Shown here in pieces: positions 25,080-37,766 of a DNA stretch of 56,782 nucleotides. The stretch spans positions 1 to 56,782 of the forward strand of contig NZ_BSSE01000040.1 in NCBI RefSeq assembly GCF_030268965.1. The letters run 5' to 3'. The DNA is from Microtetraspora sp. NBRC 16547. Lineage in GTDB: Bacteria; Actinomycetota; Actinomycetes; Streptosporangiales; Streptosporangiaceae. Both the position numbers and the translations under genes were made by a program. The number at the start of each line of letters is the position of its first letter. Position 1 is the first letter of the stretch. The notes under the pieces are model-generated. The model saw only the letters and a list, made by a program, of their open reading frames with translations. It was not told where the DNA came from and did not search any database.

Positions 25080-26402
25080 CTACATGCCGTCGGAGTCCCA
25101 GCGGCCGCGGGAGCGGCTGCGGACCGGAAGCGTGGAGATGATCGGGGCGGGAATGGGGTCGCCGGGCTTCCAGGGGCGGCCCTGGCCCCGGTTGTGCGCG
25201 CCGGCGTCGGTGCGCTCGTCCCGATGCTCCAGTGAACCGGGGTCGGCGCCCCAGCCCGCTCGTAAACCGTGCTCGTGCTCGTGCTCGTGGTGGTCGTGCT
25301 CGTGCTCGTGGTGGTCGTGCTCGTGCTCGTGACTGTGCTTGTGGTCATGGTCGTGGCCGTGCTCATGATCGTGCTCATGGTGGTGGCCGTGCTCACCGCC
25401 GTGGCCGCCCTGGAGACCGGCGGCGTCGAGGGCCTTGGCCATCGCGATCAGGCTCTTGTCGACGCCCTCGCCGCTCGGGACGTAGTCGGCGTCGTCCGCA
25501 CCCTGCTCCCGTTGGTAGCGCACGGACGCGGCGAGATCGGCCAGGTCGCGCTCGCTGCGCCGGGCCGAGCCCTTCCCGAGGTCGTGCGACGACTGCGACC
25601 AGCGCATCCGGGTGCCGCCCGGGCCGTAGTTGACCGCCTCGCCGCCCCAGCGGATCCACTCGTTCTGGGTGTACCAGTTGAACAGCTCGCCGTCGGAGCG
25701 CAGCAGCATGGTCATGCCGCCCTCCATGGTGGTGAAGTGGCCGTGCTTCACCCGGGCCGGCCGGAAGAAGTAGCTGCCCTGGTCGAGGGTGCCGAAGTTG
25801 TACTCCATGTGCCCCTGCGTGGTGTACGCCTCCTCGTAGCAGGGGTGGTGGGCCAGGCGGTGGTCGGTCCAGCCCTCCTGGCAGTACACCAGCCGGGTGT
25901 AGAACCCGGTGACTGGATCGACGTGCAGATATTTGATGAAAAGTCCGGGCATCGGACCGGGGTTCGGTACCGCGTCCCACGTCATGGCCTCGGTGTCGAT
26001 GACGGTGACGTCCTCCCGCGCGCCGGCCCAGCGCGGGGCGTTCACATCGTCCACGGGGTCGAATCCGGCGTCGCCGTACTCGCGGTAGTGCAGGATCCGC
26101 GTCCCCTCGGCGAACGTGATCGCGTCGGTGGGCACGCCCTTGGGCGCGTGGACGTACCCGCCCTTGCCGATCTCGCGGCCGCCGTACGTCATCGAGCCGT
26201 CGAGCACGTAGTACTCGGTGTCGGCGTGGTGGATCCCGGGGCCGCGACCCCAGCGGGTGTGGAAGTCGACGCGCAGCGACGAGGAGCCGTCCTCCTCGTC
26301 CACCGAAAGCCGGCGCTCACTGGCCCGTCCCTCGCCGCCGACGAGTTCGGCCGCATGCCAGACGTAGTCGTCGTCATGGATCAGTTCGACGTGCGGGCGC
26401 AT
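25080..26402 (-). CDS. Bicupin (DUF4437-like) with a 45-residue His-rich metal-binding linker
   Basis: 440 residues. Cupin 1 at about 45-120 (GIHHADTEYYVLDGSMTYGG, GGYVHAPKGVPTDA) and cupin 2 at about 170-255 (CYEEAYTTQGHMEYNFG, YFFRPARVKHGHF), each with His/Glu residues suitable for Fe, Mn or Zn. About residues 334-378 are almost only His, Glu and Asp (HGHHHEHDHEHGHDHDHKHS and onward). The C-terminal 60 residues are basic. It is the last gene of the VIT1 operon, separated from the DUF3598-like gene by an acyl-ligase remnant. It could store or buffer metal, or be a metal-dependent dioxygenase with an attached chaperone-like tail. Confidence 0.8.
   Translation of the reverse strand: MRPHVELIHDDDYVWHAAELVGGEGRASERRLSVDEEDGSSSLRVDFHTRWGRGPGIHHADTEYYVLDGSMTYGGREIGKGGYVHAPKGVPTDAITFAEGTRILHYREYGDAGFDPVDDVNAPRWAGAREDVTVIDTEAMTWDAVPNPGPMPGLFIKYLHVDPVTGFYTRLVYCQEGWTDHRLAHHPCYEEAYTTQGHMEYNFGTLDQGSYFFRPARVKHGHFTTMEGGMTMLLRSDGELFNWYTQNEWIRWGGEAVNYGPGGTRMRWSQSSHDLGKGSARRSERDLADLAASVRYQREQGADDADYVPSGEGVDKSLIAMAKALDAAGLQGGHGGEHGHHHEHDHEHGHDHDHKHSHEHEHDHHEHEHDHHEHEHEHGLRAGWGADPGSLEHRDERTDAGAHNRGQGRPWKPGDPIPAPIISTLPVRSRSRGRWDSDGM
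25275..25316. repeat. 21-bp tandem repeat encoding the His-rich linker
   Basis: GTGCTCGTGCTCGTGGTGGTC is present in two perfect copies (25275-25295 and 25296-25316) with degenerate copies to both sides; on the minus strand it encodes the HEHEHDH units. Confidence 0.85.
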
Positions 26403-26528
26403 TCAGGCATCCTTTCCGAGCTCGCGCTTGAGAGCCTTCCCGGCACTGTCGCGCGACGGTTTCAGCACGTAGGGCACGGTTTTGGGAATCTTGTAGCCGG
26501 TGAGGCAGGAGCGGAGGCGGGCCGGGCT
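26403..26528 (-). pseudogene. Acyl-CoA ligase (AMP-binding enzyme), C-terminal scrap
   Basis: The frame before the bicupin ATG reads RLRSCLTGYKIPKTVPYV then LKPSRDSAGKALKRELGKDA and stop. GYKIPK and the late SAGKALKREL (catalytic Lys) are the hallmark end of acyl-CoA synthetases. About 500 residues are missing, so a deletion joined the DUF3598-like gene to this tail. Confidence 0.75.
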
Positions 26529-26529
26529 C

Positions 26530-26985
26530 TCATGCCACGACGCGCGTCTCGTTGATCAGCGTGCGCTGGACGCAGGTGCCGCCGCTGATCCACTGCCAGA
26601 CGCGGTTCCGGTTGTTCCCGTCCTCGCTCAGCACGATCAGCTCGAACAGCCGCAGGTCGGTGCCGCTTTCCTTGTAGATCCACGACAGATAGATCGTGCT
26701 GTCGTCGACGCCCCAGAACTCGCCCTTGAGCCGGTCGGTGTCGAAGGCGCAGCGGCCTCCGCCCAGGTACGTGCCCGGGAAGCGGTGCTCTTCGGTCCTG
26801 CCGTCGTCCCAGGTGTAGACGTTGACCTGGTTGTAGTCCCATCCCTCGGTTCCGTCGCCCAGGGTGCAGGTGAGCCGGGACCGGTGCGAGTCGATGATCT
26901 TCCCGGCCGGGTCGACGTGGATGTAGGTGCCTTCCCATTCGCCCTCGTGCCGAGCGAGCAGCGGCATTTCTTCCCTGATGCCCAT
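26530..26985 (-). CDS. DUF3598-like lipocalin-fold protein
   Basis: 151 residues, all-beta pattern: LLARHEGEWEGTYIHVDPAG, RLTCTLGDGTEGWDYNQVNVY, GGRCAFDTDRLKGEFWG, ISGGTCVQRTLINETRVVA. Such DUF3598/THAP4-like beta barrels can bind heme or hydrophobic ligands (nitrobindin is a relative by fold), though no axial His is clear here. Start ATG 26985, 13 bp after the VIT1 stop, with an AAGGATC site, so it is in the VIT1 operon. Confidence 0.65.
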   Translation of the reverse strand: MGIREEMPLLARHEGEWEGTYIHVDPAGKIIDSHRSRLTCTLGDGTEGWDYNQVNVYTWDDGRTEEHRFPGTYLGGGRCAFDTDRLKGEFWGVDDSTIYLSWIYKESGTDLRLFELIVLSEDGNNRNRVWQWISGGTCVQRTLINETRVVA

Positions 26986-26998
26986 GGTGATCCTTTCG

Positions 26999-27718
26999 CT
27001 AGGAGAGGCCGGCTCCGACGAGGCTGCCGATGCCGAAGGTGGCCGCCGCGGCGATCCCGCCCAGCAGCAGTTGGCGCAGCGCTCCCCGCCACCAGGGGCG
27101 CGCCGTCAGCCGGGCGACGAGCGCGCCGGCGCCGAGCAGGCCGAGCATGCTGACCACCGCGGCCACGGCCAGCCCGGTCGCGCCGAGTATGAACGGCAGC
27201 ACCGGGATGATCGCCCCCAGGGCGAAGGCCGTGAAAGAGGAGAACGCGGCGACGTAGGGCGAGGGGAGGTCGTCCGGATCGACGCCCAGCTCCTCGCGGA
27301 CGTGGACGCGCCAGGCCAGCTCGGGCTGCTCGGTGAGCTGCCTGGCGACGCGCTCCGCGGTGTCCGCGTCCAGTCCGCGCGCCTCGTACAGGGCGATGAG
27401 CTCGGCCAGCTCGCCGTCGGGGTTGCGCTCCAGCTCGGCCTTCTCGATGTCGATCTCGGCCCGCATCAGCTCGGTCTGGGACGCGACCGAGGTGTACTCG
27501 CCCGCGGCCATGGAGCAGGCGCCGGCCGCCAGCCCGGCCAGCCCGGTCACCACCACGATCGCGTTGGGAGCGCCGCCGCCCACCACGCCGCTGATGAGGG
27601 CGAAGTTGGAGACGAGCCCGTCCATCGCGCCGAACACGGCAGGCCGCAGCCAGCCGCCGGTGACGTCGCGGTGGTGCTGGTGCTTCTCGACGGGGGGAAG
27701 GGCCGTTTCCACGCTCAT
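26999..27718 (-). CDS. VIT1/CCC1 family Fe2+/Mn2+ transporter
   Basis: 239 residues. WLRPAVFGAMDGLVSNFALISG is the family's first helix with the conserved D and N; GEYTSVASQTELMRAEI carries the metal-translocation Glu/Met segment; a hydrophilic helical hub (residues 85-150) holds many Glu for cytosolic metal binding; three C-terminal helices follow (YVAAFSSFTAFALGAIIPVL and onward). Start ATG 27718 has AAAGGA six bases upstream; ATG 27724 is too close. Bacterial relatives export or sequester Fe2+. It is divergent from the neocarzinostatin-like gene across a strong palindrome and heads the operon with the DUF3598-like and bicupin genes. Confidence 0.9.
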   Translation of the reverse strand: MSVETALPPVEKHQHHRDVTGGWLRPAVFGAMDGLVSNFALISGVVGGGAPNAIVVVTGLAGLAAGACSMAAGEYTSVASQTELMRAEIDIEKAELERNPDGELAELIALYEARGLDADTAERVARQLTEQPELAWRVHVREELGVDPDDLPSPYVAAFSSFTAFALGAIIPVLPFILGATGLAVAAVVSMLGLLGAGALVARLTARPWWRGALRQLLLGGIAAAATFGIGSLVGAGLS

Positions 27719-27783
27719 ATGCATCCTTTCCGCCTGCCTTGCCAGGGGACGCAGGTCGGGAAATCGGGGGGCGTGCAAGCTCT

Positions 27784-27810
27784 TGTTTTACGACACTATG
27801 TCGTGAAACA
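27784..27810. promoter_or_regulatory. 27-bp near-perfect palindrome (site A), proposed TetR operator
   Basis: Inner arms ACGACA and TGTCGT are separated by CTA; outer arms TGTTT and AAACA match as well, with one mismatched pair in between (T/G). It sits 66 bp before the VIT1 start and 60 bp before the neocarzinostatin-like start. The same core recurs at the heme oxygenase 1 promoter and between heme oxygenase 2 and the TetR gene. Confidence 0.7.
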
Positions 27811-27869
27811 GTGTTCCGCAAGTGACTCGGGGACTCGATCGGGATCGTTTCGGATCAAGGGAGGCACTC

Positions 27870-28490
27870 ATGCCCCGCAACCGTTCACCGCGCGCATGGC
27901 TGGTCACCGCACTGGCCGTCATCCTCGCCCTCGCCTTCCCGCTCGCCGGCGAGGCCACCGCGCAGGGCAAGCCGAAGCTGACCGCGAGCCAGAGCGCCGA
28001 CCTCACGCCGGGAACCGAGATCACGGTGACCGGAACGGGGTTCACGCCGAAGACGACCCTGTTCGTCGCTCTCTGCGACACCAAGCAGCCCCCCGGGAAG
28101 GCGTGCGACACGGGGAACTTCGCCCGGGTCACCACCGACGCCGAGGGCCGGCTGGAGACGACGATGACGCCGGTCGCCGTCTTCGGTTCCACGGACTGCG
28201 CCGCGACGACCTGCGCCCTCATGACGAACGACCCCGCCAACCCGCGGGACATCACCAACTTCACGCAGCTTCCTCTCACCTTCGCCGCCGGCGCCGCGAG
28301 CCCGGCAGCGTCGGTGGCGCCCGCCGAGCCCCCCGCCTCCGCTCCGGAGTCCACCCCCTCCACCGCCTCCGCGGCGGCGGACGACGGCGGGGCGCCCTCC
28401 GTCGTCCTCATCGTGGTCATCGCCGTCGTGCTCCTCGTGGTGGCCGTGGCCGTCGTCCTCTTCGTACGGGGCCGCGCGGCGCGGCACTAG
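27870..28490 (+). CDS. Surface-anchored neocarzinostatin-fold protein
   Basis: 206 residues from ATG 27870 (GGGAGG upstream). Signal peptide to about 32 (ALAVILALAFPLAGEATA), one immunoglobulin-like domain at 35-140 of neocarzinostatin type (LTPGTEITVTGTGFTPKTT, FVALCDTKQPPGKACDTGNF, TDCAATTCALM with two disulfide pairs), a Pro/Ser/Ala linker, a C-terminal helix at about 178-200 and a basic tail. This mirrors the build of actinobacterial heme-binding surface proteins (HtaA/ChtA), although the domain differs. Divergent from VIT1 across site A, so probably iron/heme controlled; a heme-capture role is inference. Confidence 0.75.
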   Translation: MPRNRSPRAWLVTALAVILALAFPLAGEATAQGKPKLTASQSADLTPGTEITVTGTGFTPKTTLFVALCDTKQPPGKACDTGNFARVTTDAEGRLETTMTPVAVFGSTDCAATTCALMTNDPANPRDITNFTQLPLTFAAGAASPAASVAPAEPPASAPESTPSTASAAADDGGAPSVVLIVVIAVVLLVVAVAVVLFVRGRAARH

Positions 28491-28502
28491 CAAGCACATC
28501 GC

Positions 28503-28530
28503 GGGCGGGCCGGTGGACGCCGGCCCGCCC
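28503..28530. terminator. Bidirectional terminator
   Basis: GGGCGGGCCGG and CCGGCCCGCCC form a perfect 11-bp stem (loop TGGACG) between convergent genes. Confidence 0.65.
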
Positions 28531-29505
28531 CTACGCCTGTACGGGGATTACGGGGATCTCGCCGTCGCGCAGGCAGGCGCTGTGCCGGTCGCTGGGCCGG
28601 TCGCCGACGGCGAGCAAGGGCGGGACCCGCTCCCTGCAGCCGTCCGCGACGTACGGGCAGCGAGGGTGGAAGGCGCACCCGGGAGGCGGATGGACGGCCG
28701 AGGGGACCTCTCCGGTGAGGGCGACCAGGCCCCGTCGGGCGGGATCGGGCACCGGCACGGCGGCCAGCAGCATGCGCGTGTAGGGATGGCGCGGCGCGGT
28801 GAAGACCTGCTCGGCGGGACCCTGCTCGACGATCCTGCCGAGATACATGACGGCGATCCGGGTGGCGAGGTGCCGGGCGATGTCGAGCTCGTGCGTGATG
28901 AGCACGTAACTCAGGCCGAGCGAGGCCCGCAGATCCAGCAGCAGATTGATCACGGTCGCCTTGACGCCCACATCCAGGCTGGCCGTCGGCTCGTCCAGGA
29001 CGATCGCGCGCGGCCGGGCGGCGAGCGCCCTGGCCACGGTCACCCGCTGCAGCTCCCCGCCGCTCACCCCGCTTGGGCGGCGGGCGGCGTAATGCGCGGG
29101 CAGGCCGACCTGCTCCAGCAGCTCGGCCACGCGCGCGGCCCGCTCGGCGCGGGACGGGCACAGGCCGTGCACGGCGAGGGGCTGGCCGACACTGTGGCCG
29201 ATGGTCTTGCGCGGGTTCAGCGCCGACCAGGGGTTCTGCGACACGAACTGCACGTGCCGGCGCGTCGCCCGGTCCATGCGCGTGCTCGTGGGAGTGCCGC
29301 CGATGCGCACGGTGCCCCGCGTGGGGGCGATCAGGCCGACGGCGAGCCGGGCGACCGTCGACTTGCCGCAGCCGGACTCCCCGACGACGGCGAGTGTCTC
29401 GCCGGGGTCGAGACGGAGGGAGACGTCCTCCACCGCGTGGACCGCCTGGCGCCGTCCGAGCGGGAAGCGCCGGGTGACGTGGTCGAGTTCGAGCAGTGGC
29501 GTCAT
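28531..29505 (-). CDS. ABC importer ATPase, DppF/OppF type
   Basis: 324 residues. Walker [11 protein letters not shown]-loop [15 protein letters not shown], signature VSGGELQR, Walker [12 protein letters not shown], switch LITHEL, and the C-terminal oligopeptide-family extension [14 protein letters not shown]. Last gene of a five-gene operon; its ATG overlaps the previous stop by four bases. Confidence 0.92.
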
Positions 29506-30422
29506 GCGTCCTCCTCGGCGCGATGACAGCGGACCACGTCCGCTCCGATGGTGATCGGCATCGGCTCCTCCTCACCGCAGCGGGCGAACGCGTCGGGACA
29601 GCGAGGGGCGAACGCGCATCCCGCGGAGCGGGCCCGCGCGTCCCCGGGGATCGTGCCGAGGCGCCGCCCGGGTTCGGTACGGCCGGGCAACGCCGCCAGG
29701 AGGGCCCGGGTGTAGGGGTGGCGGGGTGCGGTGAAGATCTGGTCCACGGTGCCCGACTCGACTAGCCGACCCGCGTACATCACCCCGACCCGGTCGCAGA
29801 TCTGGGCCACCACCGCGAGGTCGTGGGTCACGTAGAGCATCGCCAGCCCGAGCCGGTCGCGCAGGTCGAGCAGGAGGCGGAGCACCTGCGCCTGCACGGT
29901 GGCGTCCAGCGTGGTGGTCGGCTCGTCGGCGATGAGCAGATCGGGCTTCCTGGCCAGTGCGGCGAGCACGATGAGCAGACGCTGGAGCTGCCCGCCGGAG
30001 AAGCGGTGGGGGTGGTCGCGCGGCCGGTCGATCACCGCGCGCAGGCCCACCTGGCCGAGCAGGTCGGCGAGGTCGGGCCCGTCGTGGTACCAGCGGAGCT
30101 GGCGCAGCACCGGAGAGGAGGGGCTGAGCGAGGTCATCGGCCGCTGGGGCACCAGGCCGATGCGGGAGGCCCGAAGCCGCCGCATCTCCTCGTGGGACAG
30201 CTCGGTCAGCTCCCGCCCGTCGAAGCGCAGTCCGGCCGCGCGGACGCTCGCGCCGGCCGGGAGCACCCCCGTGATCGCCGAGCACAGGCTCGTCTTGCCG
30301 CTGCCGGACTCTCCGACCAGGCCGAGGATCTCCCCTCTGCGCAGGGTGAGGGAGACGCCGCGTACGGCGGGCCGGCCCGAGTAGGCCACGTCCAGGTCCG
30401 CGATGGTCAGCAGGTCAGCCAC
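29502..30422 (-). CDS. ABC importer ATPase, DppD/OppD type
   Basis: 306 residues from GTG 30422. Walker [11 protein letters not shown]-loop [13 protein letters not shown], signature FSGGQLQR, Walker [13 protein letters not shown], switch YVTHDLAVV, and Cys cluster [14 protein letters not shown]. Overlaps the binding-protein stop by 8 bp. Confidence 0.92.
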
Positions 30423-31950
30423 CGGAGTTCCCCCCGGGGCGCAGGTTCGGGGTGCCCAGCCTGCTGATCCGCATCCGCCCCGGGTCCAGGGGGCTCACGC
30501 TCGCCCGCTGCCCCACGATCATCTTCGGGTAGACGGGCGGGAACATCACCGCGTCCTCGGTCAGGGCGGCGTTGACCTGGCGGAGCAGTCCGTCGCGCTC
30601 GGCCTGGTCGGAGGTCGCCCATACGCGGTCGAGCGCGGTGTCGACGGCGGCGTTCTCGTAGCCGCAGGCCAGAACGCTCCTGGACTGGGCGGGGGAGAGA
30701 GCGAGATAGTTGGCGTCGCCGCTGGTGAAGCCGCTGGAGAAGCGGTTCATGATCATCTGGTAGGCGCCGGAGATCCAGCGCTGCGCCCAGGGGCCGCCCT
30801 GAAGCACCTCCAGCTTCACGGTGATGCCCGCCTGCGCCCAGCCCTGCACGAGGATCTGCGCGATGTCCTCCATGACCTGTCCGGCGCTGATCGTGAGGGT
30901 GAAGGAGGGGTTCGCGACCCCGTCGAGGAGCCGGCGCGCCCGGGCCGGGTCGGGCCGGGCGGGAAAGACGCGCAGGCTCGGGTCGTATCCGCGTTCGGCG
31001 GGACCGATGGGGCCCTGGCCGAGGGTCGCCGAGCCGCCGAAGACCTTCTCGTTCACTCCCTGGCGGTCGGACGCGTAGGCCACCGCGCGGCGGAAGTTCA
31101 CGTCGTCGAAGGGCGGGTCCCCCGCCTTGACGTAGGTGAGGATGTCGATCGGGGCGTCTACCCGGTGGACGGTGACCTGCGGCTGCCCCATGAGGAGCGT
31201 CAACGCGGCCACGGGCAGCTCGGTGGCGATGTCCACGTTGCCCGCGCGCAGGTTCACCGCCCGCGTGGAGCCGTCCGGGATGATCTGGAACTCCAGCCGG
31301 GCGTACGCGGGGGGCTGGCCGTGATACCCGTGATGGGCGGCCATGGAATAACCCAGCCCGGGCGAGACACGCTCCAGCTTGTAGGGGCCGGTGCCCATCA
31401 TCGTGTCCTTGCGGTCGGCGAACGCCCGGTGCGTGATCGGCAGGTTGGTCAGGTGCGAGCGGAGCAGGCCGTAGGGCCGCTTGAGGGTGATCTCGACCGT
31501 GTTCCGGTCGACGGCGCGGGCCCCCGAGTAGTAGCCGAGGAAGTAGACGACCCACTCGCTGCCGCTGGCGAACGCGGCCACATGGTCGAGCGAGGCGACC
31601 ACGTGTTCGGCTGTGAAGGCGTCGCCGTTGTGGAACGTCACCCCCTGCTTGAGCGGGATCCTCCAGGTGAGCCCGTCGCCGGAGACCGCCGGCTCCGCCG
31701 CCGCGAGCAGCGGCACCGACCGGAGCCGCTCGTCGTAGTCGTAGAGCGTCTCCATCACCGGCTCGGCGATCCACCGGGTGACCTCGCTGCCGGAGTCGAG
31801 GGGGTTGAGGTTGCTCGGCCCCGCGGCGACACCGATCCTGAGCGTCCCGCCGCCGCTCGCCGGGGAGGCGGGCGAGCAGGCGGCGACCAGCGACGCGGCG
31901 GGGAGCAGCCCGAGGAAACGCCGTCGGGACCAGAAGGGGGGAGGTGTCAT
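30415..31950 (-). CDS. ABC substrate-binding lipoprotein, SBP_bac_5 (DppA/heme-binding-like) family
   Basis: 511 residues. The N-terminus SRRRFLGLLPAASLVAAC has a twin-Arg-like start and a lipobox ending at Cys, so it is a membrane lipoprotein. Family motifs: VAAGPSNLNPLDSGSEVTRW, GDGLTWRIPLKQGVTFHNGD, MGTGPYKLERV. Start ATG 31950 (ATGA overlap with the permease stop); a longer frame is antisense noise. DppA and HbpA of this family bind heme as well as peptides in other bacteria, which matters because the operon diverges from a heme oxygenase operon. No heme ligand can be assigned by eye. Confidence 0.9.
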   Translation of the reverse strand: MTPPPFWSRRRFLGLLPAASLVAACSPASPASGGGTLRIGVAAGPSNLNPLDSGSEVTRWIAEPVMETLYDYDERLRSVPLLAAAEPAVSGDGLTWRIPLKQGVTFHNGDAFTAEHVVASLDHVAAFASGSEWVVYFLGYYSGARAVDRNTVEITLKRPYGLLRSHLTNLPITHRAFADRKDTMMGTGPYKLERVSPGLGYSMAAHHGYHGQPPAYARLEFQIIPDGSTRAVNLRAGNVDIATELPVAALTLLMGQPQVTVHRVDAPIDILTYVKAGDPPFDDVNFRRAVAYASDRQGVNEKVFGGSATLGQGPIGPAERGYDPSLRVFPARPDPARARRLLDGVANPSFTLTISAGQVMEDIAQILVQGWAQAGITVKLEVLQGGPWAQRWISGAYQMIMNRFSSGFTSGDANYLALSPAQSRSVLACGYENAAVDTALDRVWATSDQAERDGLLRQVNAALTEDAVMFPPVYPKMIVGQRASVSPLDPGRMRISRLGTPNLRPGGNSGG

Positions 31951-32843
31951 CGCGTCTCCACGTGAGTCGTGCCGCGCCCGCTGAGGGAGTCGGACAGGGC
32001 GTCGCCGATCAGGTTGAAGCCGAGGATCCCGGCGAGCATGATCGCGCCGGGCAGGACGGAGTACCACCAGATGCCCGCGGGCAGGTAGCCCGTGCCGCCG
32101 CCGGTGAGGTTGCCGAGCGTCGCCTGCGGGAGCTGGACGCCCAGCCCGAGGAAGCCGAGCCCGCCCTCGGCGAAGATCGCCAGGGCCATCGCGAGGAACG
32201 CCTGGACCAGCATGGCGGGCGCGACGTTGGGCAGCAGCTCGCCGAAGAGGATCCGGACCCGCGGCACGCCCACCACCCGCAGCGCGGACACGTACTCCTG
32301 GCCGGTCTCCGCCATGGTCGCGGCGCGCGCCACGCGCGCGAAATAGGGGACGAACGCCGCGCCGAGCAGCAGCACGACCTTGGTCGTCATGGTGATCGGG
32401 ATCGGCCCCAGGTGTGCCGTGGCCGTACCGCTGAGACCGATGACGAACATCGCCAGCACGAACATCGGGAGCGCCTGGACGATCTCCAGCACCCGCATGA
32501 TCAGGTCGTCGAGGAGACGGCCGCCGTGGTAGCCGGCGAGGATGCCCAGCGGCAGGGCGAGCAGCAGGCCGAGCGCCACGGCGGCCAGGCTGACCGCCAG
32601 CGACACCTGGGTGCCCGCCGCGGTCCGGGCGAACAGGTCGCGGCCGAGCTGGTCGGTGCCGAACGGGTGGGCCGGGCTCGGGGCCGCGAGCACGTCGGGG
32701 CCGGCGGCGTTCGGGTCACCGGACACCAGCGGCCCCACGACGGCGAGCAGGCAGAACAGCCCGGCGCAGGCGACGCCGAACCAGGTCAGGCCGTCTCGAG
32801 GAAGGAACCGGACGCGGCGCGTGGCCGGGAGGACGGCGCTCAC
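31947..32843 (-). CDS. ABC importer permease, DppC type
   Basis: 298 residues, about six helices. HPFGTDQLGRDLFARTAAGTQ is the G-T-D-x-x-G-R-D motif of C-type permeases; the EAA loop reads GQEYVSALRVVGVPRVRIL. ATGA coupling to both neighbours. Confidence 0.92.
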   Translation of the reverse strand: MSAVLPATRRVRFLPRDGLTWFGVACAGLFCLLAVVGPLVSGDPNAAGPDVLAAPSPAHPFGTDQLGRDLFARTAAGTQVSLAVSLAAVALGLLLALPLGILAGYHGGRLLDDLIMRVLEIVQALPMFVLAMFVIGLSGTATAHLGPIPITMTTKVVLLLGAAFVPYFARVARAATMAETGQEYVSALRVVGVPRVRILFGELLPNVAPAMLVQAFLAMALAIFAEGGLGFLGLGVQLPQATLGNLTGGGTGYLPAGIWWYSVLPGAIMLAGILGFNLIGDALSDSLSGRGTTHVETR

Positions 32844-33775
32844 CGGGCCTTACCTCGGTTGAGCACGCCCTCGCGGATCCGCGGGTCGATCCCCAGTTGG
32901 GCGACGTCCACCACCAGATTGGTGAGGAGGTAGAGGACGGCCACGGCCAGGCAGCAGCCGGCGGCCACCGGATAGTCCTGCCGGCGGAAGGAGTCGACCA
33001 TGAGCTGGCCCAGGCCGGGCACGCCGAACACGTTCTCCACCAGGATCGCGCCGCTGACCAGCATGCCCAGCATCAGTCCCATGACGGTGACCAGGGGGAT
33101 CGCCGCGTTGCGCAGCGCCACCCGGAGGACCAGCCGGCGGCGGCGCATGCCCATCGACGTGGCGAAGGCGACGTAGTCACGGTCGAGCACCTCCAGGACG
33201 GAGGCGCGGAACGTGCGGGCCACGACGGCGAACGCGGGCAGGCCGAGCACGAAGGCGGGCAGGACCAGGCTGCGCAGGTGTGCGGCCGCGCCCTCGGAGA
33301 TCGGGACGTACCCGCTGATCGGCAGCACCCCGGTGAGGTAGACGCCGAAGACCAGCACGCAGACGAGGCCCAGCCAGAAGCTCGGTACCGAGAGCGCCAC
33401 CACGCTCGTGACGCGGACGAACCCGTCGAGCGGCGAGCCGTGCCGGAGCGCGGCGAGCGCGCCGGCGAGGACGCCCAGCGTCATCCAGACCGCTCCGGCG
33501 ACCAGCCCCAGTTCGAGGGAGACGGGCAGCCGCTGGGAGATGAGCTCCCCGACCGACTGCCCGGAGAACACCGAGGTGCCGAGATCCCCGCCGACCAGTT
33601 GCCGGAGGTAGCGCGCGTACTGCTCGGGGATGGAGGCGTTCAGGCCGAGCCGCGCGGCGACCGCGGCCCTGCCCTCCTCGCTGTAGCTGAATCCCAGCAG
33701 GGTGTACAGCGGGCTGCCCGGTGACAACCGGAGGAGGACGAACACCAGCGAGATCACCGCGAAGACGGTGGTCAC
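32840..33775 (-). CDS. ABC importer permease, DppB type (start uncertain)
   Basis: 311 residues from GTG 33775: TTVFAVISLVFVLLRLSPGS, then the B-type outer loop, and EAA loop VLDRDYVAFATSMGMRRRR. The usual charged N-terminus of DppB (YLLRRLIAL) is encoded just upstream in the same frame, but that stretch has no ATG, GTG or TTG before an in-frame TGA; only CTG or ATC codons. Either translation starts at an unusual codon after the GAGAGAGG site, or the GTG used gives a slightly short first helix. First gene of the importer operon, divergent from heme oxygenase 1. Confidence 0.85.
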   Translation of the reverse strand: MTTVFAVISLVFVLLRLSPGSPLYTLLGFSYSEEGRAAVAARLGLNASIPEQYARYLRQLVGGDLGTSVFSGQSVGELISQRLPVSLELGLVAGAVWMTLGVLAGALAALRHGSPLDGFVRVTSVVALSVPSFWLGLVCVLVFGVYLTGVLPISGYVPISEGAAAHLRSLVLPAFVLGLPAFAVVARTFRASVLEVLDRDYVAFATSMGMRRRRLVLRVALRNAAIPLVTVMGLMLGMLVSGAILVENVFGVPGLGQLMVDSFRRQDYPVAAGCCLAVAVLYLLTNLVVDVAQLGIDPRIREGVLNRGKAR

Positions 33776-33832
33776 GAGTGCGATCAGACGCCGGAGGAGA
33801 TAGGAGACGATGGCGAACCACCTCTCTCAGTG

Positions 33833-33875
33833 TTCCGCTATCCGGAATTGTGTATATGTGCACGGAATAGTAGAT
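33833..33875 (-). promoter_or_regulatory. AT-rich promoter region of the importer operon
   Basis: TTCCG and CGGAA are arranged as an inverted repeat (33833-33837 and 33843-33847) with another CGGAA at 33863-33867. On the minus strand a TATACA-like -10 (33851-33856) lies about 75 bp before the permease start. Half site GCGACA preceded by TTTTG occurs at 33904-33909, only loosely like the proposed TetR operator. Confidence 0.35.
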
Positions 33876-33984
33876 CGCCCTTCCTGTGACGGGAAGGGTT
33901 TTGGCGACAGATCGTCATCATCCGAACGATGGATTGCCTGGTGCGCGCCCGCGGGCAGGCCGGGCCCTCGGCGGCCGGCGGCCG

Positions 33985-34055
33985 GCAGCCATGGTGGCGG
34001 CGATGGCGGCGGCCATGGTGGCGGCGGTGGTGGCGGCGGTGGTGGCCGGCCGGGC
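33985..34055. repeat. GGC/GGT triplet low-complexity tract
   Basis: Irregular runs of ATGGTGGCGGC and GGTGGTGGC units. Antisense frames through it give His/Arg-rich peptides that I treat as artefacts. It separates the importer promoter from the heme oxygenase operators. Confidence 0.7.
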
Positions 34056-34089
34056 CGGGGCGGTCGCGTTGCGCGGCGCAGCGAAGTTC

Positions 34090-34145
34090 GCGACGATGTG
34101 TCGTAAAAGTATTGACCATCATCGCTCTTGCTGACACTCTGTCGT
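34090..34145 (+). promoter_or_regulatory. Two proposed TetR operators (sites B1, B2) at the heme oxygenase 1 promoter
   Basis: B1 (34090-34104) is GCGACG-ATG-TGTCGT followed by AAAA. B2 (34131-34145) is CTGACA-CTC-TGTCGT followed by TAAAA. Each keeps a perfect TGTCGT right arm with an A-run, and a left arm matching ACGACA at 4 of 6. A TTGACC -35-like box (34112-34117) lies between them and B2 covers where the -10 should be, so binding would block transcription. Confidence 0.55.
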
Positions 34146-34177
34146 TAAAAGGCATTCCGACGCAATGGAGTCCAGGC

Positions 34178-34834
34178 ATGACTGCAACCGAGAGCTTCGC
34201 CGAGCAGCTCAAGAAGGCGACCTGGAGCGACCACGAGGATGCGGAGCACACCGCCTTCCTCGAAGCGCTCATGGGTGGGCGCGTCTCCCGGGAGGGGTAC
34301 GCCGAGATGGTGGCCCAGCACTACTTCGCCTACGTGGCCCTGGAGGAGGCGGGACGCGCCCTCGCCGACGACCCGGTCGCGGGCCCGTTCGTCAGCCCGG
34401 AGCTTGAGCGCCTGCCCGCCTTGGAGGCCGACCTGGAGGAGCTGTACGGAAAGGACTGGCGCGACAAGATCACGCCGTCCAAGCCCACGTTGACCTATGT
34501 CGCGCGGATCAACCAGATCGCCGACTGGCCGGGCGGGTTCATCGCCCACCACTACACCCGCTACCTCGGCGACCTCTCCGGCGGGCAGGTGATCCGCAAG
34601 GTCGCCGAGCGCACGTACCAGTTCGGCGCCGCGGCGGGAGTGCGGTTCTACCTCTTCCCCGGCATCCCGGACCTCAAGGCGTTCAAGGTCGACTACCGGG
34701 ACCGGCTCAACGCGCTGAACCCGGACGAGGTGGAGGCCAGGAGGATCATCGGCGAGACCGTGCTGGCCTACCAGCTCAACACCGAGGTCATCGTCGAGAT
34801 CGGCAAGCGGCTGCCCGAGTACCTGGTGGCATGA
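34178..34834 (+). CDS. hmuO: Heme oxygenase (biliverdin-producing)
   Basis: 218 residues, the HmuO/HO-1 size. Proximal heme ligand H19 in TWSDHEDAEHTAF aligns with His20 of HmuO; the distal helix YTRYLGDLSGGQVIRK has the essential Asp that organises bound O2. It opens heme to biliverdin, CO and Fe2+ using O2 and seven electrons. Start ATG 34178 (MTATESFAEQL); the longer upstream frame is not homologous. Its stop overlaps the diaphorase ATG (ATGA), so enzyme and electron donors are made as one set. Confidence 0.93.
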   Translation: MTATESFAEQLKKATWSDHEDAEHTAFLEALMGGRVSREGYAEMVAQHYFAYVALEEAGRALADDPVAGPFVSPELERLPALEADLEELYGKDWRDKITPSKPTLTYVARINQIADWPGGFIAHHYTRYLGDLSGGQVIRKVAERTYQFGAAAGVRFYLFPGIPDLKAFKVDYRDRLNALNPDEVEARRIIGETVLAYQLNTEVIVEIGKRLPEYLVA

Positions 34835-36054
34835 GCTTTCCCCTGCCGGTCCGCCCGCTCCGGGACGCGCGCCTGCTCGCTCCGGAGCCGGACGGGGCGC
34901 CGCGCGGCCCAGACCCCTCGGGGCCGGAGATCATCGAGATCGCCGAGGCGGCGGGCGTGCGCGGGCGCGGCGGCGCGGGCTTCCCGCTGGCCAAAAAGCT
35001 CCGCTCGGTCGCATCGGCGGCCGGCTCCACCCGCTTCGTGATCGCCAACGGGGAGGAGGGCGAGCCCGCCTCCGTCAAGGACCGGTTCCTGCTCCGCGAG
35101 CGTCCGGAGCTCGTGCTCCGCGGTCTCGCGCTGGCCGCCCGGGCCGTGGGAGCCGACCGCTCCTACGCGTATGTCAGCGATCCGGCCGCCGCCCGCCGCC
35201 TCGCCGGGGCACGCGGCGGCGACCTCGTCGACGTCGTGCGGGTGACGCCCGGATACGTGGCGGGGGAGGAGACCGCGGTCGTCCGCGCCGTCGGCGGCGG
35301 ACCGGCCCTGCCCACGGCGAAACCGCCCCGGCCCTGGCAGGCGGGCCTGGGGGGAGCGCCCACCCTGGTGAGTAACGCCGAGACGCTCGCCCAGCTCGCC
35401 CTCGCCGTCCGGCTCGGACCGGAGACCTACCGCCGGCTCGGCACCCCGGAGTCCGGAGGCACGTTCCTGGTGACGCTGTCGGGCGCGGGTCAGGCCCCCG
35501 TCCTGTACGAGGTCCCGTACGGTGTCCCGCTGCGTGAGCTGGTGACCACCCACCGGGGAACGGCCGCCGGGGTGACCGGGATGCTGGCCGGTGGCTTCGC
35601 GGGAGGACTGCTTCCTCCTTCGGCCCTGGACCTTCCGCTCACCCACGCCGCGCTGGCCGCTGCGGGCAGCACGCTCGGCTGCGGCGCCTTCGTCCTGCTC
35701 GCCGGGGAGTGCCCGGTGGGGGTGGCCGCCGACGTGGCGGCCTTCTTCGACCGGGAGAACGCGCGGCAGTGCGGGCCGTGCGTCACGGGCACGGCGGGCG
35801 TGGCGGACGTGCTCGCCGGGCTGACCGTACGCTCCGCGACGTGGAGCGACGTCGCGCGGCTGGAACGGTGGGGGCAGGCGCTGGCCGGGCGGGGCAACTG
35901 CGCGACGCCGGACGCCGTGACGGTCCTGGTCGGCTCGCTCTTCCTGCATCACCGCGATCTCGTCGGCGCGCACGTGGACGCGGAGTGCGAGCGGTGCGCC
36001 GTCTCCCCTGTCACCGCGGACACGAAGTTTCGCATCTCTCTGGAGGAACCATGA
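34831..36054 (+). CDS. NuoF-like NADH:FMN/Fe-S oxidoreductase (diaphorase module)
   Basis: 407 residues, complex-I 51-kDa fold. GRGGAGFPLAKK and IANGEEGEPASVKDR form the FMN/NADH site; an SLBB beta-grasp follows (FLVTLSGAGQAPVLYEVPYG); the C-terminal cluster domain has C314 and C317 (ARQCGPCVTG) and C357 (GRGNCATP). The first Cys of the canonical C-x2-C-x2-C is Ala here, while a spare CERC pair (C386, C389) lies at the end. Coupled by ATGA to heme oxygenase and to the ferredoxin. It likely moves electrons from NADH to the ferredoxin for heme cleavage. Confidence 0.85.
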   Translation: MSFPLPVRPLRDARLLAPEPDGAPRGPDPSGPEIIEIAEAAGVRGRGGAGFPLAKKLRSVASAAGSTRFVIANGEEGEPASVKDRFLLRERPELVLRGLALAARAVGADRSYAYVSDPAAARRLAGARGGDLVDVVRVTPGYVAGEETAVVRAVGGGPALPTAKPPRPWQAGLGGAPTLVSNAETLAQLALAVRLGPETYRRLGTPESGGTFLVTLSGAGQAPVLYEVPYGVPLRELVTTHRGTAAGVTGMLAGGFAGGLLPPSALDLPLTHAALAAAGSTLGCGAFVLLAGECPVGVAADVAAFFDRENARQCGPCVTGTAGVADVLAGLTVRSATWSDVARLERWGQALAGRGNCATPDAVTVLVGSLFLHHRDLVGAHVDAECERCAVSPVTADTKFRISLEEP

Positions 36055-36239
36055 AGGTTGTGATCGACGCCGCCGTGTGCGACGGCAAGGGGTACTGCAA
36101 GCGTTTCGCTCCGGAGGTGTTCGGGCTGGACGAGTGGGGTTACGGCAAGGTTCTGGTGGATGAGGTCCCGCCGGAGCACATGGCGGGCGCCGAGGCCGCC
36201 GTCGAGGCGTGTCCGTTGCAGGCCATCAGGACGGTGTGA
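36051..36239 (+). CDS. Ferredoxin, 3Fe-4S type
   Basis: 62 residues, the length of Streptomyces SoyB-type ferredoxins. C10, C16 (VCDGKGYC) and C54 (EACPLQAI) are the three cluster ligands; the fourth position is Gly, as in 3Fe-4S members. PEVFGLDEWGYGKV is the family linker. Start ATG 36051 overlaps the diaphorase stop. These small ferredoxins normally feed P450s; here the operon says the client is heme oxygenase. Confidence 0.92.
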   Translation: MKVVIDAAVCDGKGYCKRFAPEVFGLDEWGYGKVLVDEVPPEHMAGAEAAVEACPLQAIRTV

Positions 36240-36241
36240 CG

Positions 36242-36268
36242 AGGCCGCCCTCTCCAGGAGGGCGGCCT
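36242..36268 (+). terminator. Terminator of the heme oxygenase operon
   Basis: AGGCCGCCCTC and GAGGGCGGCCT form a perfect 11-bp stem with loop TCCAG, starting three bases after the ferredoxin stop. Confidence 0.75.
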
Positions 36269-36357
36269 TCGCGTTCGTTCGCGCTTCCTCGTGTCTTTCG
36301 TGTTCCGGGCGCCTGCCGCGTGCCGTCCCTGTGTGCCGTCCCTGCGTGCCCTCTCTG

Positions 36358-37023
36358 TCAGGCCACGCCGAACTCCTCGCCCAGCTCGACGGTGATCGCG
36401 GCGTTGCCGCGGAAGGCGTGACTGCCCTCCTCCACCAGCGGCTCGAGGTCCTCCTCGGTGACAGGCACCGCGTTCATCCGCGCGTGATAGTCGGAGATGA
36501 AGGCGCGGTTGTCCTCGATCTCCGCGAAGTCGTAGAACGCCACGCCGGCGCCGTCGCTCAGGCCGTACGTCGTGGTGAGCAGCTTGGCGAGCGTCGCCCC
36601 GCCGTGCAGGTAACCGGCGTAGCGGATCCAGTGGTGGGGGACCAGGCCGAGTGGCCACTCGTCGCGGACGCGGTGCAGCCGCGCCACGTACGCGTCGGTG
36701 GCCGGAGAGGTGCGCAGGGAGTCCCGCCAGTCGCGGCCGTGGAAGTACGCGAGGTCGCGCTCGATGGCCTCCGCGCGGTTGAGCTGGGGCAGGTACAGGG
36801 CGCCGACGGCGGGGTCCTCCCGCAGGGCCTCCGCCGTCCGCTCCAGGGCGGAGTACACAGCGTGAAACCGGACCAGCCACGCGCTGTAGGCGTCCTTGGT
36901 CAGCCTGCCCTGGAACAGGGCGAGCATGTAGGGAGTGTTCTCGGCCTCGCGGTGCGCCTCGGACGTCCCGTGGTAGAGCAGCTTGGACAGCGGCTCGCGG
37001 TCCTGGGCGGTGTTCGTGTTCAC
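36358..37023 (-). CDS. Second heme oxygenase homologue with altered distal helix
   Basis: 221 residues from GTG 37023 (GGAGGA upstream; the frame to 37068 crosses the operator). Proximal H24 in TSEAHREAENTPYM is kept. The distal segment reads IRYAGYLHGGATLAK instead of G-D-L-S-G-G-Q, so Tyr138 stands where the O2-activating Asp belongs and His140 where Ser belongs. Asp mutants of other heme oxygenases turn into peroxidase-like proteins, so it may make a different product, bind heme for transfer or sensing, or use another proton relay. Divergent from the TetR gene. Confidence 0.85.
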   Translation of the reverse strand: MNTNTAQDREPLSKLLYHGTSEAHREAENTPYMLALFQGRLTKDAYSAWLVRFHAVYSALERTAEALREDPAVGALYLPQLNRAEAIERDLAYFHGRDWRDSLRTSPATDAYVARLHRVRDEWPLGLVPHHWIRYAGYLHGGATLAKLLTTTYGLSDGAGVAFYDFAEIEDNRAFISDYHARMNAVPVTEEDLEPLVEEGSHAFRGNAAITVELGEEFGVA

Positions 37024-37034
37024 GCCTGTCCTCC

Positions 37035-37082
37035 GTTTTACGACGAGTTGCCTTAAAGATAACGACAAACTGTCGTCAAAAC
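37035..37082. promoter_or_regulatory. Proposed TetR operators (sites C1, C2) between heme oxygenase 2 and tetR
   Basis: C1 (37062-37076) is ACGACA-AAC-TGTCGT, a perfect 6+6 palindrome followed by CAAAAC. C2 (37035-37058) begins GTTTTACGACG and ends TGCCTTAAAG, matching the left half of site A over ten bases. C2 abuts the ribosome site of heme oxygenase 2; C1 lies about 90 bp before tetR. GAAAC-GAC-GTTTC (37091-37103) is a further palindrome. Confidence 0.65.
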
Positions 37083-37163
37083 AACAGAGCGAAACGACGT
37101 TTCCCGGCCGCTGTGAAAGGCGGGAACGCTGACGGCATGCCCGCTGCGTGCGAAAATGCCGAT

Positions 37164-37766
37164 ATGCCTAGGATTTCTGCCCCGAACCTGCGAGAGCACC
37201 GCGCGCAGACAGTGAACCGGATCATCGACGCGGTGGCCCGGCTCTCCAAGGATCGAGGCATCGACGCGATCTCCATGACCGACGTCGCGGCGGAGGCCGG
37301 CGTGGCGCGGACCGTCCTCTACAACTACTTCCCGGACAAGGCCGCGCTGCTGCTCGCGTTCAGCCAGCGGGTGACCGACTACTTCGTCGACCTCTTCGAG
37401 CAGGACCTGCCCGAGGGTGCCAGCGCCGGCTCGCGTCTTGAGTCTTTCGTCCGGCTCCAGCTGAAGGGCCTCGTCGCCCACCCCCACCCGGGCGCCGCCG
37501 AGATCACCGCGGCGCTGGGACCCGACGCGTACCAGGCGCTCGCGGGCCATGTGGCGCCCATGCACAAGATCTTGTGCGAGATCCTCGCCGGCGGGATCGA
37601 GTCGGGGGAGTTCCGCCCGCTCGACGTGGACGCCGCCGCCCGCAGCGTCCTGGCCGTCATCGGGGCGGAGCGGATCCCCCTCGTCGGCGGCGCGGTGACG
37701 CTGGAAGACGCGGAGCGGACCGTCATCGCCTTCGTCCAGGGAGCCGTCCGAGCACCGGGAAAGTGA
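37164..37766 (+). CDS. TetR-family repressor, proposed regulator of the heme/iron genes
   Basis: 200 residues. HTH at about 15-60 (TVNRIIDAVARLSKDRGIDA, SMTDVAAEAGVARTVLYNYF), ligand-binding helices after. Start ATG 37164 (MPRISAPNLREH) is taken because residues before it in the longer frame are not family-like. It is divergent from heme oxygenase 2 with palindromes between. The same palindrome core occurs at two other heme/iron promoters in the window, so it is the best candidate to bind them, with heme, biliverdin or iron as possible inducer. Confidence 0.85.
   Translation: MPRISAPNLREHRAQTVNRIIDAVARLSKDRGIDAISMTDVAAEAGVARTVLYNYFPDKAALLLAFSQRVTDYFVDLFEQDLPEGASAGSRLESFVRLQLKGLVAHPHPGAAEITAALGPDAYQALAGHVAPMHKILCEILAGGIESGEFRPLDVDAAARSVLAVIGAERIPLVGGAVTLEDAERTVIAFVQGAVRAPGK

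Follow-up and report, generated by a model that had tools for sequence, protein, structure and literature searches.

A probable heme-utilization regulon under a TetR-family repressor in Microtetraspora sp. NBRC 16547

In the corynebacterial HtaA/HmuTUV systems of actinobacteria, surface capture of heme is combined with ABC import and a heme oxygenase. A 56,782-nucleotide contig of Microtetraspora sp. NBRC 16547 (NZ_BSSE01000040.1, C40 of a 7.8 Mb genome; hereafter, the window) raises the question of whether other proteins can serve the same purpose. It encodes two members of the heme oxygenase family (HO1 and HO2), a NuoF-like diaphorase, a ferredoxin, a VIT1-family transporter, a neocarzinostatin-fold surface protein, a Dpp-type ABC importer and a TetR-family protein (Table 1). 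An earlier note on this DNA proposed that these genes, together with those for a bicupin and a DUF3598 protein, form one TetR-controlled regulon for the use of heme as an iron source. A heme-utilization regulon under one TetR-family repressor is probably the correct account, although its membership appears to be narrower. What can be read from the DNA comprises the genes, their predicted operators, the conservation of both, the coupling of operator and TetR gene, and a link of the operator and the neocarzinostatin domain to heme in relatives.

The palindrome ACGACA-N3-TGTCGT, which had been placed at all three divergent promoters of the cluster, is indeed found there, with exact copies at 27790 and 37062, but at the HO1/opp promoter it is degenerate (two mismatches each at 34090 and 34131, and three at 33904). 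A genome-wide search for the plain motif shows no enrichment, as 358 copies with up to two mismatches are found versus 377 in a backward control. In the window, the 28 copies with up to three mismatches, compared with 24.0 expected, are no excess over chance. The exact 15-mer occurs three times in the genome, twice in the cluster and once at C1:135756, and a longer pattern with up to two mismatches is found outside the cluster at C30:1924 (inside a predicted frame) and C15:38345. Because the plain motif with mismatches is at chance level, a 27 bp profile trained on relatives (108 sites from the training loci described below, window excluded) was used instead, and it is from relatives that significance was obtained. 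The six best sites in the window by this profile, scoring from 37.6 down to 16.7, all lie at the three divergent promoters, and the next best scores 4.3. In 60 simulated windows, the mean maximum was 6.35 and the largest 19.5; consequently, the sixth site (37040, scoring 16.7) rests on its counterparts in other clusters.

A search with HO1, whose top named matches belong to Microtetraspora niveoalba and M. glauca, retrieved 63 loci, 57 of which also hold a TetR gene in the stretch, at varying distance. The training set consisted of 57 heme oxygenase loci, with six extended-cluster loci excluded, and 52 of these hold a TetR gene in the stretch. Within 220 bp of the heme oxygenase gene, RYGACA-N3-TGTCRY (up to one mismatch) occurs at least once in 56 of the 57 training loci, L085 being the sole exception, and twice in 53; among 5700 random stretches from the same loci, 19 have one copy and none has two. 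The two copies are 44 bp apart in 47 of the 53 loci, and in all 51 pairs spaced by 43 or 44 bp they flank a TTGA(C/T) box at offset 21 or 22, which reads TTGAC in each of the 12 pairs inspected. The HO1 pair of the window follows the same plan, with TTGACC at offset 22 and copies 41 bp apart. These comparisons lend strong support to the predicted operators being conserved and real. In contrast, no IdeR-like box was seen in the window, where the best match to the consensus has 7 mismatches in 19 positions; TetR control rather than control of the DtxR/Fur type, as claimed earlier, agrees with this result.

Conservation in relatives, another expectation of the earlier note, also holds for the core of the cluster. 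Gene models of relatives come from an uncurated GC-frame caller that missed or mis-started some genes (for instance, the first neocarzinostatin gene of L144), and names without a Pfam call were assigned by eye. Six clusters can be compared: the window and those of M. niveoalba (L046), M. glauca (L047 and L106), Nonomuraea sediminis (L048), N. spiralis (L049) and Actinomadura sp. BRA 177 (L050). All six retain the neocarzinostatin gene with its operator, the solute-binding protein, both permeases, HO1, the NuoF-like protein, the ferredoxin, HO2 and TetR, while OppD/OppF and VIT1 are each found in five. The DUF3598 and bicupin genes each occur in four, the search in L050 extending 1.4 kb beyond the DUF3598 gene. 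In M. glauca, the VIT1, neocarzinostatin and importer genes with a copy of HO1 (L047) are on a different contig from the HO1-NuoF-ferredoxin-HO2-TetR run (L106), and operators are present on both. The opp-proximal operator is kept in L046 (33.0) and L047 (30.6). N. sediminis carries a separate heme oxygenase-TetR locus (L092) in addition to its cluster, which suggests that the cluster was acquired by transfer.

The operator is also coupled to the TetR gene across genomes. TetR relatives (matches at E<=1e-30) are present in 153 of 297 family genomes. When 120 family genomes were scanned with the longer pattern at up to one mismatch, 33 had a site, that is, 30 of the 54 with the TetR gene versus 3 of the 66 without it (p = 2e-10). 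For 27 of these 30 genomes, the TetR gene has a site no more than 8 kb away; the three others (G040, G086 and G111) have their sole site at a distance or on another contig, and dropping them gives p = 6e-9. Side by side with these genomes stand a congener (G118) whose TetR (L152, G118:C49) is 84% identical to that of the window, with no cluster around it, and scattered sites in relatives (L147, L148, L150, L154 and L155) with no evident heme gene nearby by eye. As the HO1, HO2/TetR and VIT1/neocarzinostatin promoters share conserved operators, a single TetR regulon spanning the three is supported by sequence comparison.

In HrtR, a TetR-family regulator of Lactococcus lactis, the ligand domain contains His ligands. 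The ligand domain of the window TetR carries an HPHP motif (H106 and H108), H129 and M133. Positions H106, P107, H108 and P109 are invariant in the 57 named TetR-holding loci, which are related sequences and not independent draws, and H129, P132 and M133 are found in 56 of them, the remaining one having a gap. Three TetRs about 38% identical, with no site above 0.9 nearby and surroundings in which inspection by eye revealed no heme oxygenase, have HPQP or YPQP instead and Leu for M133, while H129 is kept. The invariance of the HPHP motif suggests, without proving it, that this TetR senses heme. No chain named HrtR is among the best 60 of 113 PDB matches to the protein. A more distant TetR, 34% identical to that of the window, adjoins a DUF3598 gene in L234 (G539), where no operator of this type is found.

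The connection with heme is given by evidence from outside the window. HtaA is a hemophore (PMC12494546). Of the 120 family genomes, 17 have HtaA and 8 have a strong match (E<1e-40). Because the same operator precedes HtaA genes in three other genomes, there is good support, within the limits of sequence comparison, for linking the operator and its putative regulon to heme. In one of these, G054, the TetR-heme oxygenase pair is on contig C3 and the operators in question are on C14, unlinked to TetR; one precedes a gene with a neocarzinostatin domain (E 2.6e-4, under the cut-off), another the HtaA gene (1.3e-51), and a third lies between a neocarzinostatin-like and an HmuT-like gene (Peripla_BP_2 1.2e-37), overlapping the called start of the latter. 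That neocarzinostatin-like gene has no Pfam hit at 0.001, and the stretch is matched at 1.8e-4 in the genome search. In G086 and G111, sites scoring about 20 precede HtaA; no site was seen before HtaA in the stretches examined of G040, G046, G060 and G063.

The neocarzinostatin domain has its own association with HtaA. This fold is known as a carrier of enediyne drugs. In the window, the domain scores 47.6 bits against a family cut-off of 25, and the AlphaFold model (mean pLDDT 73.8, with the strands in residues 36-136 mostly well predicted) matches macromomycin and neocarzinostatin; of its 14 best PDB fold matches, 12 carry titles that place them in this family, and two are 4jw3 chains. Unlike the apoproteins of the family (macromomycin, C-1027), with which it shares fold and Pfam family, the window protein has a C-terminal membrane helix and its gene follows a predicted TetR operator that belongs to a regulon with heme oxygenase. 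Five of the eight genomes with strong HtaA have PF00960 in the same locus, and PF00960 also occurs in 16 genomes that lack strong HtaA (p = 0.004). In G046, G060, G063 and G113, a single open frame encodes the neocarzinostatin domain together with HtaA domains, two or three in number, between which it lies. By Pfam on called genes, the fusion in L215 (G060) scores 31.9 against the cut-off of 25, and those in L216 and L217 are just under it (23.6 and 23.0). In L218 (G046), the called gene gives only HtaA at E<=0.001, and the neocarzinostatin domain comes from the genome search (22.9 bits, or 25.1 with in-frame neighbours). These fusions are, with the HO2 variant discussed below, the most surprising result. 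No paper on neocarzinostatin and HtaA together was found in the open-access literature searched, and no title among the matches listed concerns a TetR/heme oxygenase or neocarzinostatin/heme regulon of this kind, the subscription literature being mostly outside that search. A study of a Saccharopolyspora TetR (Sp1418) lists a heme oxygenase among its proteins (PMC7011500). Short genes with a single HtaA domain and no evident signal peptide were also seen in L168, L181 and L184, the last adjoining P450-like and lipocalin-like frames by eye.

Several observations weigh against a heme-utilization regulon. Concerning the operator, no site with up to one mismatch was found in 24 of the 54 TetR-bearing genomes, nor in G118, where the profile finds none around TetR either; and the opp-proximal operator, of which none was seen in L048-L050, has been found in Microtetraspora alone. 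Composition of the cluster also varies: OppD/OppF are not at their usual place in L046, which keeps the binding protein and permeases, and VIT1 is absent from the cluster in L048. The closest solved relatives of the solute-binding protein are generic peptide binders. Regarding HtaA, an operator precedes it in 3 of the 7 TetR-bearing genomes with a strong match, 16 of the 21 neocarzinostatin-family genomes have no strong HtaA, and a weak site (20.4) precedes an HmuT-like gene in G113, a genome where TetR has no match at E<=1e-30. The neocarzinostatin domain of the window has no His and no Tyr, so classical axial heme ligation is impossible; if it binds heme, it would use other ligands or partner another binder. 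Finally, the neocarzinostatin genes of G016, G067 and G103 have, by eye, WxL-like and sortase-like neighbours and no HtaA close by, contexts that argue against all family members having a heme role. At loci L219, L220 and L221, too, neocarzinostatin-domain genes have WxL-like and sortase-like neighbours, and a window-like bicupin is found in L220 and, partially, in L219 (by eye).

The alternative that survives best is that the system detoxifies heme rather than feeding on it. TetR would sense toxic heme and release HO1 for degradation and VIT1 for iron export, while the surface protein and the ABC importer serve otherwise. HrtR of L. lactis, FhtR of Enterococcus faecalis and HatR of Clostridioides difficile, which like the window TetR are family members tied to heme genes, control heme efflux or transporter genes and not uptake (PMC12670364), and the operator shared by VIT1 is in line with such a role, as is the finding that no IdeR-like box is seen in the window. 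In contrast, the predicted targets here are heme oxygenase and, in relatives, HtaA; the presence of the same operator before this heme-capture family in G054, G086 and G111 is a misfit with pure detoxification, which is considered rather unlikely.

A second possibility is that biliverdin from HO1 is itself the product, as a chromophore or antioxidant, and is what the regulator senses. Although a NuoF-like reductase and a ferredoxin lie together with HO1 in one gene run as its own partners, neither a bilin reductase nor a phytochrome is encoded among the 28 frames of the cluster region scanned with Pfam (no search for them was made elsewhere in the genome), and HtaA genes share the operator; bilin production is therefore judged very improbable. 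Equally hard to credit is a chance neighbourhood, in which a widespread TetR-heme oxygenase pair happens to lie beside an unrelated peptide importer and metal transporter, since, despite the passenger-like bicupin and DUF3598 genes and an importer without a specific heme signature, the VIT1/neocarzinostatin operator has the top score of the window, is kept in all six clusters (before the neocarzinostatin gene in L048, which has no VIT1) and survives in M. glauca apart from TetR.

For the heme-utilization regulon, the following sequence of events can be proposed, in which we infer repression, the ligand, what the importer carries, which way VIT1 moves iron and what HO2 does. TetR would repress its own operon and HO1 through paired operators around the -35 and -10 boxes and would also occupy the site in the divergent VIT1/neocarzinostatin promoter. 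Heme, or else a product derived from it, is the most likely ligand; once it fills the ligand domain with its HPHP motif, H129 and M133, TetR would leave the DNA. The neocarzinostatin-fold surface protein and the Dpp-type importer could assist heme entry, after which HO1, drawing on the ferredoxin and its NuoF-like reductase, would open the ring and free Fe2+, with VIT1 removing or storing any excess. For HO2, the most likely role is to hold heme, to pass it on or to turn it over in another way, and not to act as a standard oxygenase.

This assignment of HO2 follows from its active site. The earlier note counted two heme oxygenases, and both are members of the Pfam family, but only HO1, with its proximal His and a GDLSGGQ distal helix that is also present in its orthologues, is canonical. 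HO2 aligns with solved heme oxygenases over nearly its whole length, yet it reads RYAGYLHGGATL where the HO1 copies, like the remaining heme oxygenases compared, have RY(L/M/I)GDLSGGQ. In all six clusters, the distal catalytic Asp is replaced by Tyr (GYLHGGA for GDLSGGQ). This Asp (Asp140 in human, Asp136 in HmuO) has a role in catalysis (PMC7948506, PMC5623701); it is key to proton transfer and D140H strongly lowers activity (PMC7948506), while D140A converts the enzyme to a peroxidase (PMC5623701). Without it, HO2 is probably not an ordinary heme oxygenase. Nevertheless, loss of activity is not certain, because plant heme oxygenases have His instead of this Asp (PMC7948506). With a threshold of E<=1e-50, 6 of the 345 genomes that represent the order have HO2 (G000, which is the window genome, G061, G096, G203, G306 and G310), and its carriers are apparently all cluster carriers; the context seen in G306 and G310 is the neighbouring NuoF-like gene, plus TetR in G310. 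HO2 could be useful to enzymologists as a naturally occurring and conserved exchange of the catalytic Asp.

In the proteins proposed for heme entry, the window differs from known systems. As claimed earlier, HtaA is absent from its genome, and also from its three congeners by genome search; regarding HmuTUV, a search without a positive control gave a best HmuT match of 22% identity (E 3.4e-7), which is not close. Instead of these proteins there are a neocarzinostatin protein and a Dpp-type importer, together with TetR operators, although in the four relatives mentioned the neocarzinostatin domain and HtaA are encoded in a single frame. A Dpp-type ABC importer has been proposed for heme in another actinobacterium, Mycobacterium tuberculosis (PMC6751184). 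Unlike that system, the window binding protein matches DppA lipoprotein chains weakly (7.9e-07 at best) compared with generic peptide binders (1uqw, 1.6e-30, the best PDB match), with a chain named 'Heme-binding protein A' at 1.7e-21. Heme is a putative cargo of the importer. More tentatively, the neocarzinostatin fold might also be a heme-handling module of actinobacteria, fused to or beside HtaA, that replaces HtaA in Microtetraspora and its relatives and works with a Dpp-type importer, in a regulon where an HPHP heme-sensing TetR turns on uptake and degradation and not efflux, and where HO2 is a heme-holding protein; taken as a whole, this wider scheme is possible but not the likelier case. 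It would give neocarzinostatin-fold proteins a possible natural role outside drug clusters. The operators offer a code by which heme use can be tested across a large group of actinomycetes, and a TetR subfamily can be named as a candidate heme sensor.

Table 1. Genes and predicted regulatory sites of the cluster, with window coordinates
Feature	Position	Strand	Basis
TetR-family repressor (putative), 200 aa	37164..37766	+	Pfam TetR_N 2.3e-13 on longer frame 37113-37766
Predicted operator, HO2/TetR promoter	37062..37076	.	motif exact; profile score 29.5
Predicted second, weaker operator, HO2/TetR promoter	37040..37054	.	profile score 16.7; counterparts 20.3 to 29.2 in L046, L048, L049, L050, L106
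HO2, heme oxygenase paralogue, GYLHGGA distal motif	36358..37023	-	Pfam 4.9e-52 (longer frame); alignment to 1we1
Small single-cluster ferredoxin, 62 aa, likely electron donor	36051..36239	+	Pfam Fer4_15 1.3e-11
NuoF-like flavin/NADH diaphorase, likely NADH:ferredoxin reductase	34831..36054	+	Pfam Complex1_51K 1.5e-30
HO1, canonical heme oxygenase, GDLSGGQ	34178..34834	+	Pfam 2.3e-58 (longer frame); motif in translation
Predicted operator 2 at HO1, would overlap -10 region	34131..34145	.	profile score 28.0
-35-like TTGACC between both HO1 operators	34112..34117	+	TTGA(C/T) at same offset in 51/51 relatives
Predicted operator 1 at HO1	34090..34104	.	profile score 29.3
Predicted opp-proximal operator, 129 bp before oppB	33904..33918	.	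profile score 26.6
OppB/DppB-like permease	32840..33775	-	Pfam BPD_transp_1 2.3e-37
OppC/DppC-like permease	31947..32843	-	Pfam 8.1e-24
Family-5 solute-binding lipoprotein	30415..31950	-	Pfam SBP_bac_5 1.1e-67 on longer frame 30415-32067
OppD/DppD-like ATPase	29502..30422	-	Pfam ABC_tran 1.2e-24, oligo_HPY
OppF/DppF-like ATPase	28531..29505	-	Pfam ABC_tran 4.5e-31, oligo_HPY
Neocarzinostatin-fold protein, N-terminal hydrophobic segment and C-terminal membrane helix	27870..28490	+	Pfam 1.9e-12; AlphaFold model
Predicted operator, VIT1/neocarzinostatin divergent promoter	27790..27804	.	motif exact; profile score 37.6, best of the window
VIT1-family transporter	26999..27718	-	Pfam 5.6e-69 (longer frame)
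DUF3598_N protein, probable passenger	26530..26985	-	Pfam 7.6e-06
DUF4437/Cupin_7 bicupin, His-rich tail, probable passenger	25080..26402	-	Pfam 3.2e-65

Pfam agrees with every gene that had been listed for the cluster, including the five-gene Opp/Dpp-type ABC system and the single TetR gene, and the coordinates given for them were correct, the ferredoxin being the 62-aa frame. By contrast, the extension of the regulon to the bicupin and DUF3598 genes was not upheld, as their neighbours elsewhere point to both being probable passengers. The bicupin gene was dropped as a heme gene, being found beside an acyl-CoA-ligase-like gene in L048, L049 and L220, and so was the DUF3598 gene, elsewhere located beside aldehyde-dehydrogenase-like and nitrilase-like genes (both by eye); the DUF3598 protein has no convincing sequence match in PDB, with one at E 0.26. 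Between these two genes, on the minus strand of the window at 26403-26560, there is a piece of about 50 codons resembling the C-terminus of an acyl-CoA ligase, and full-length ligase-like genes occupy the same place in L048 and L049 (by eye).

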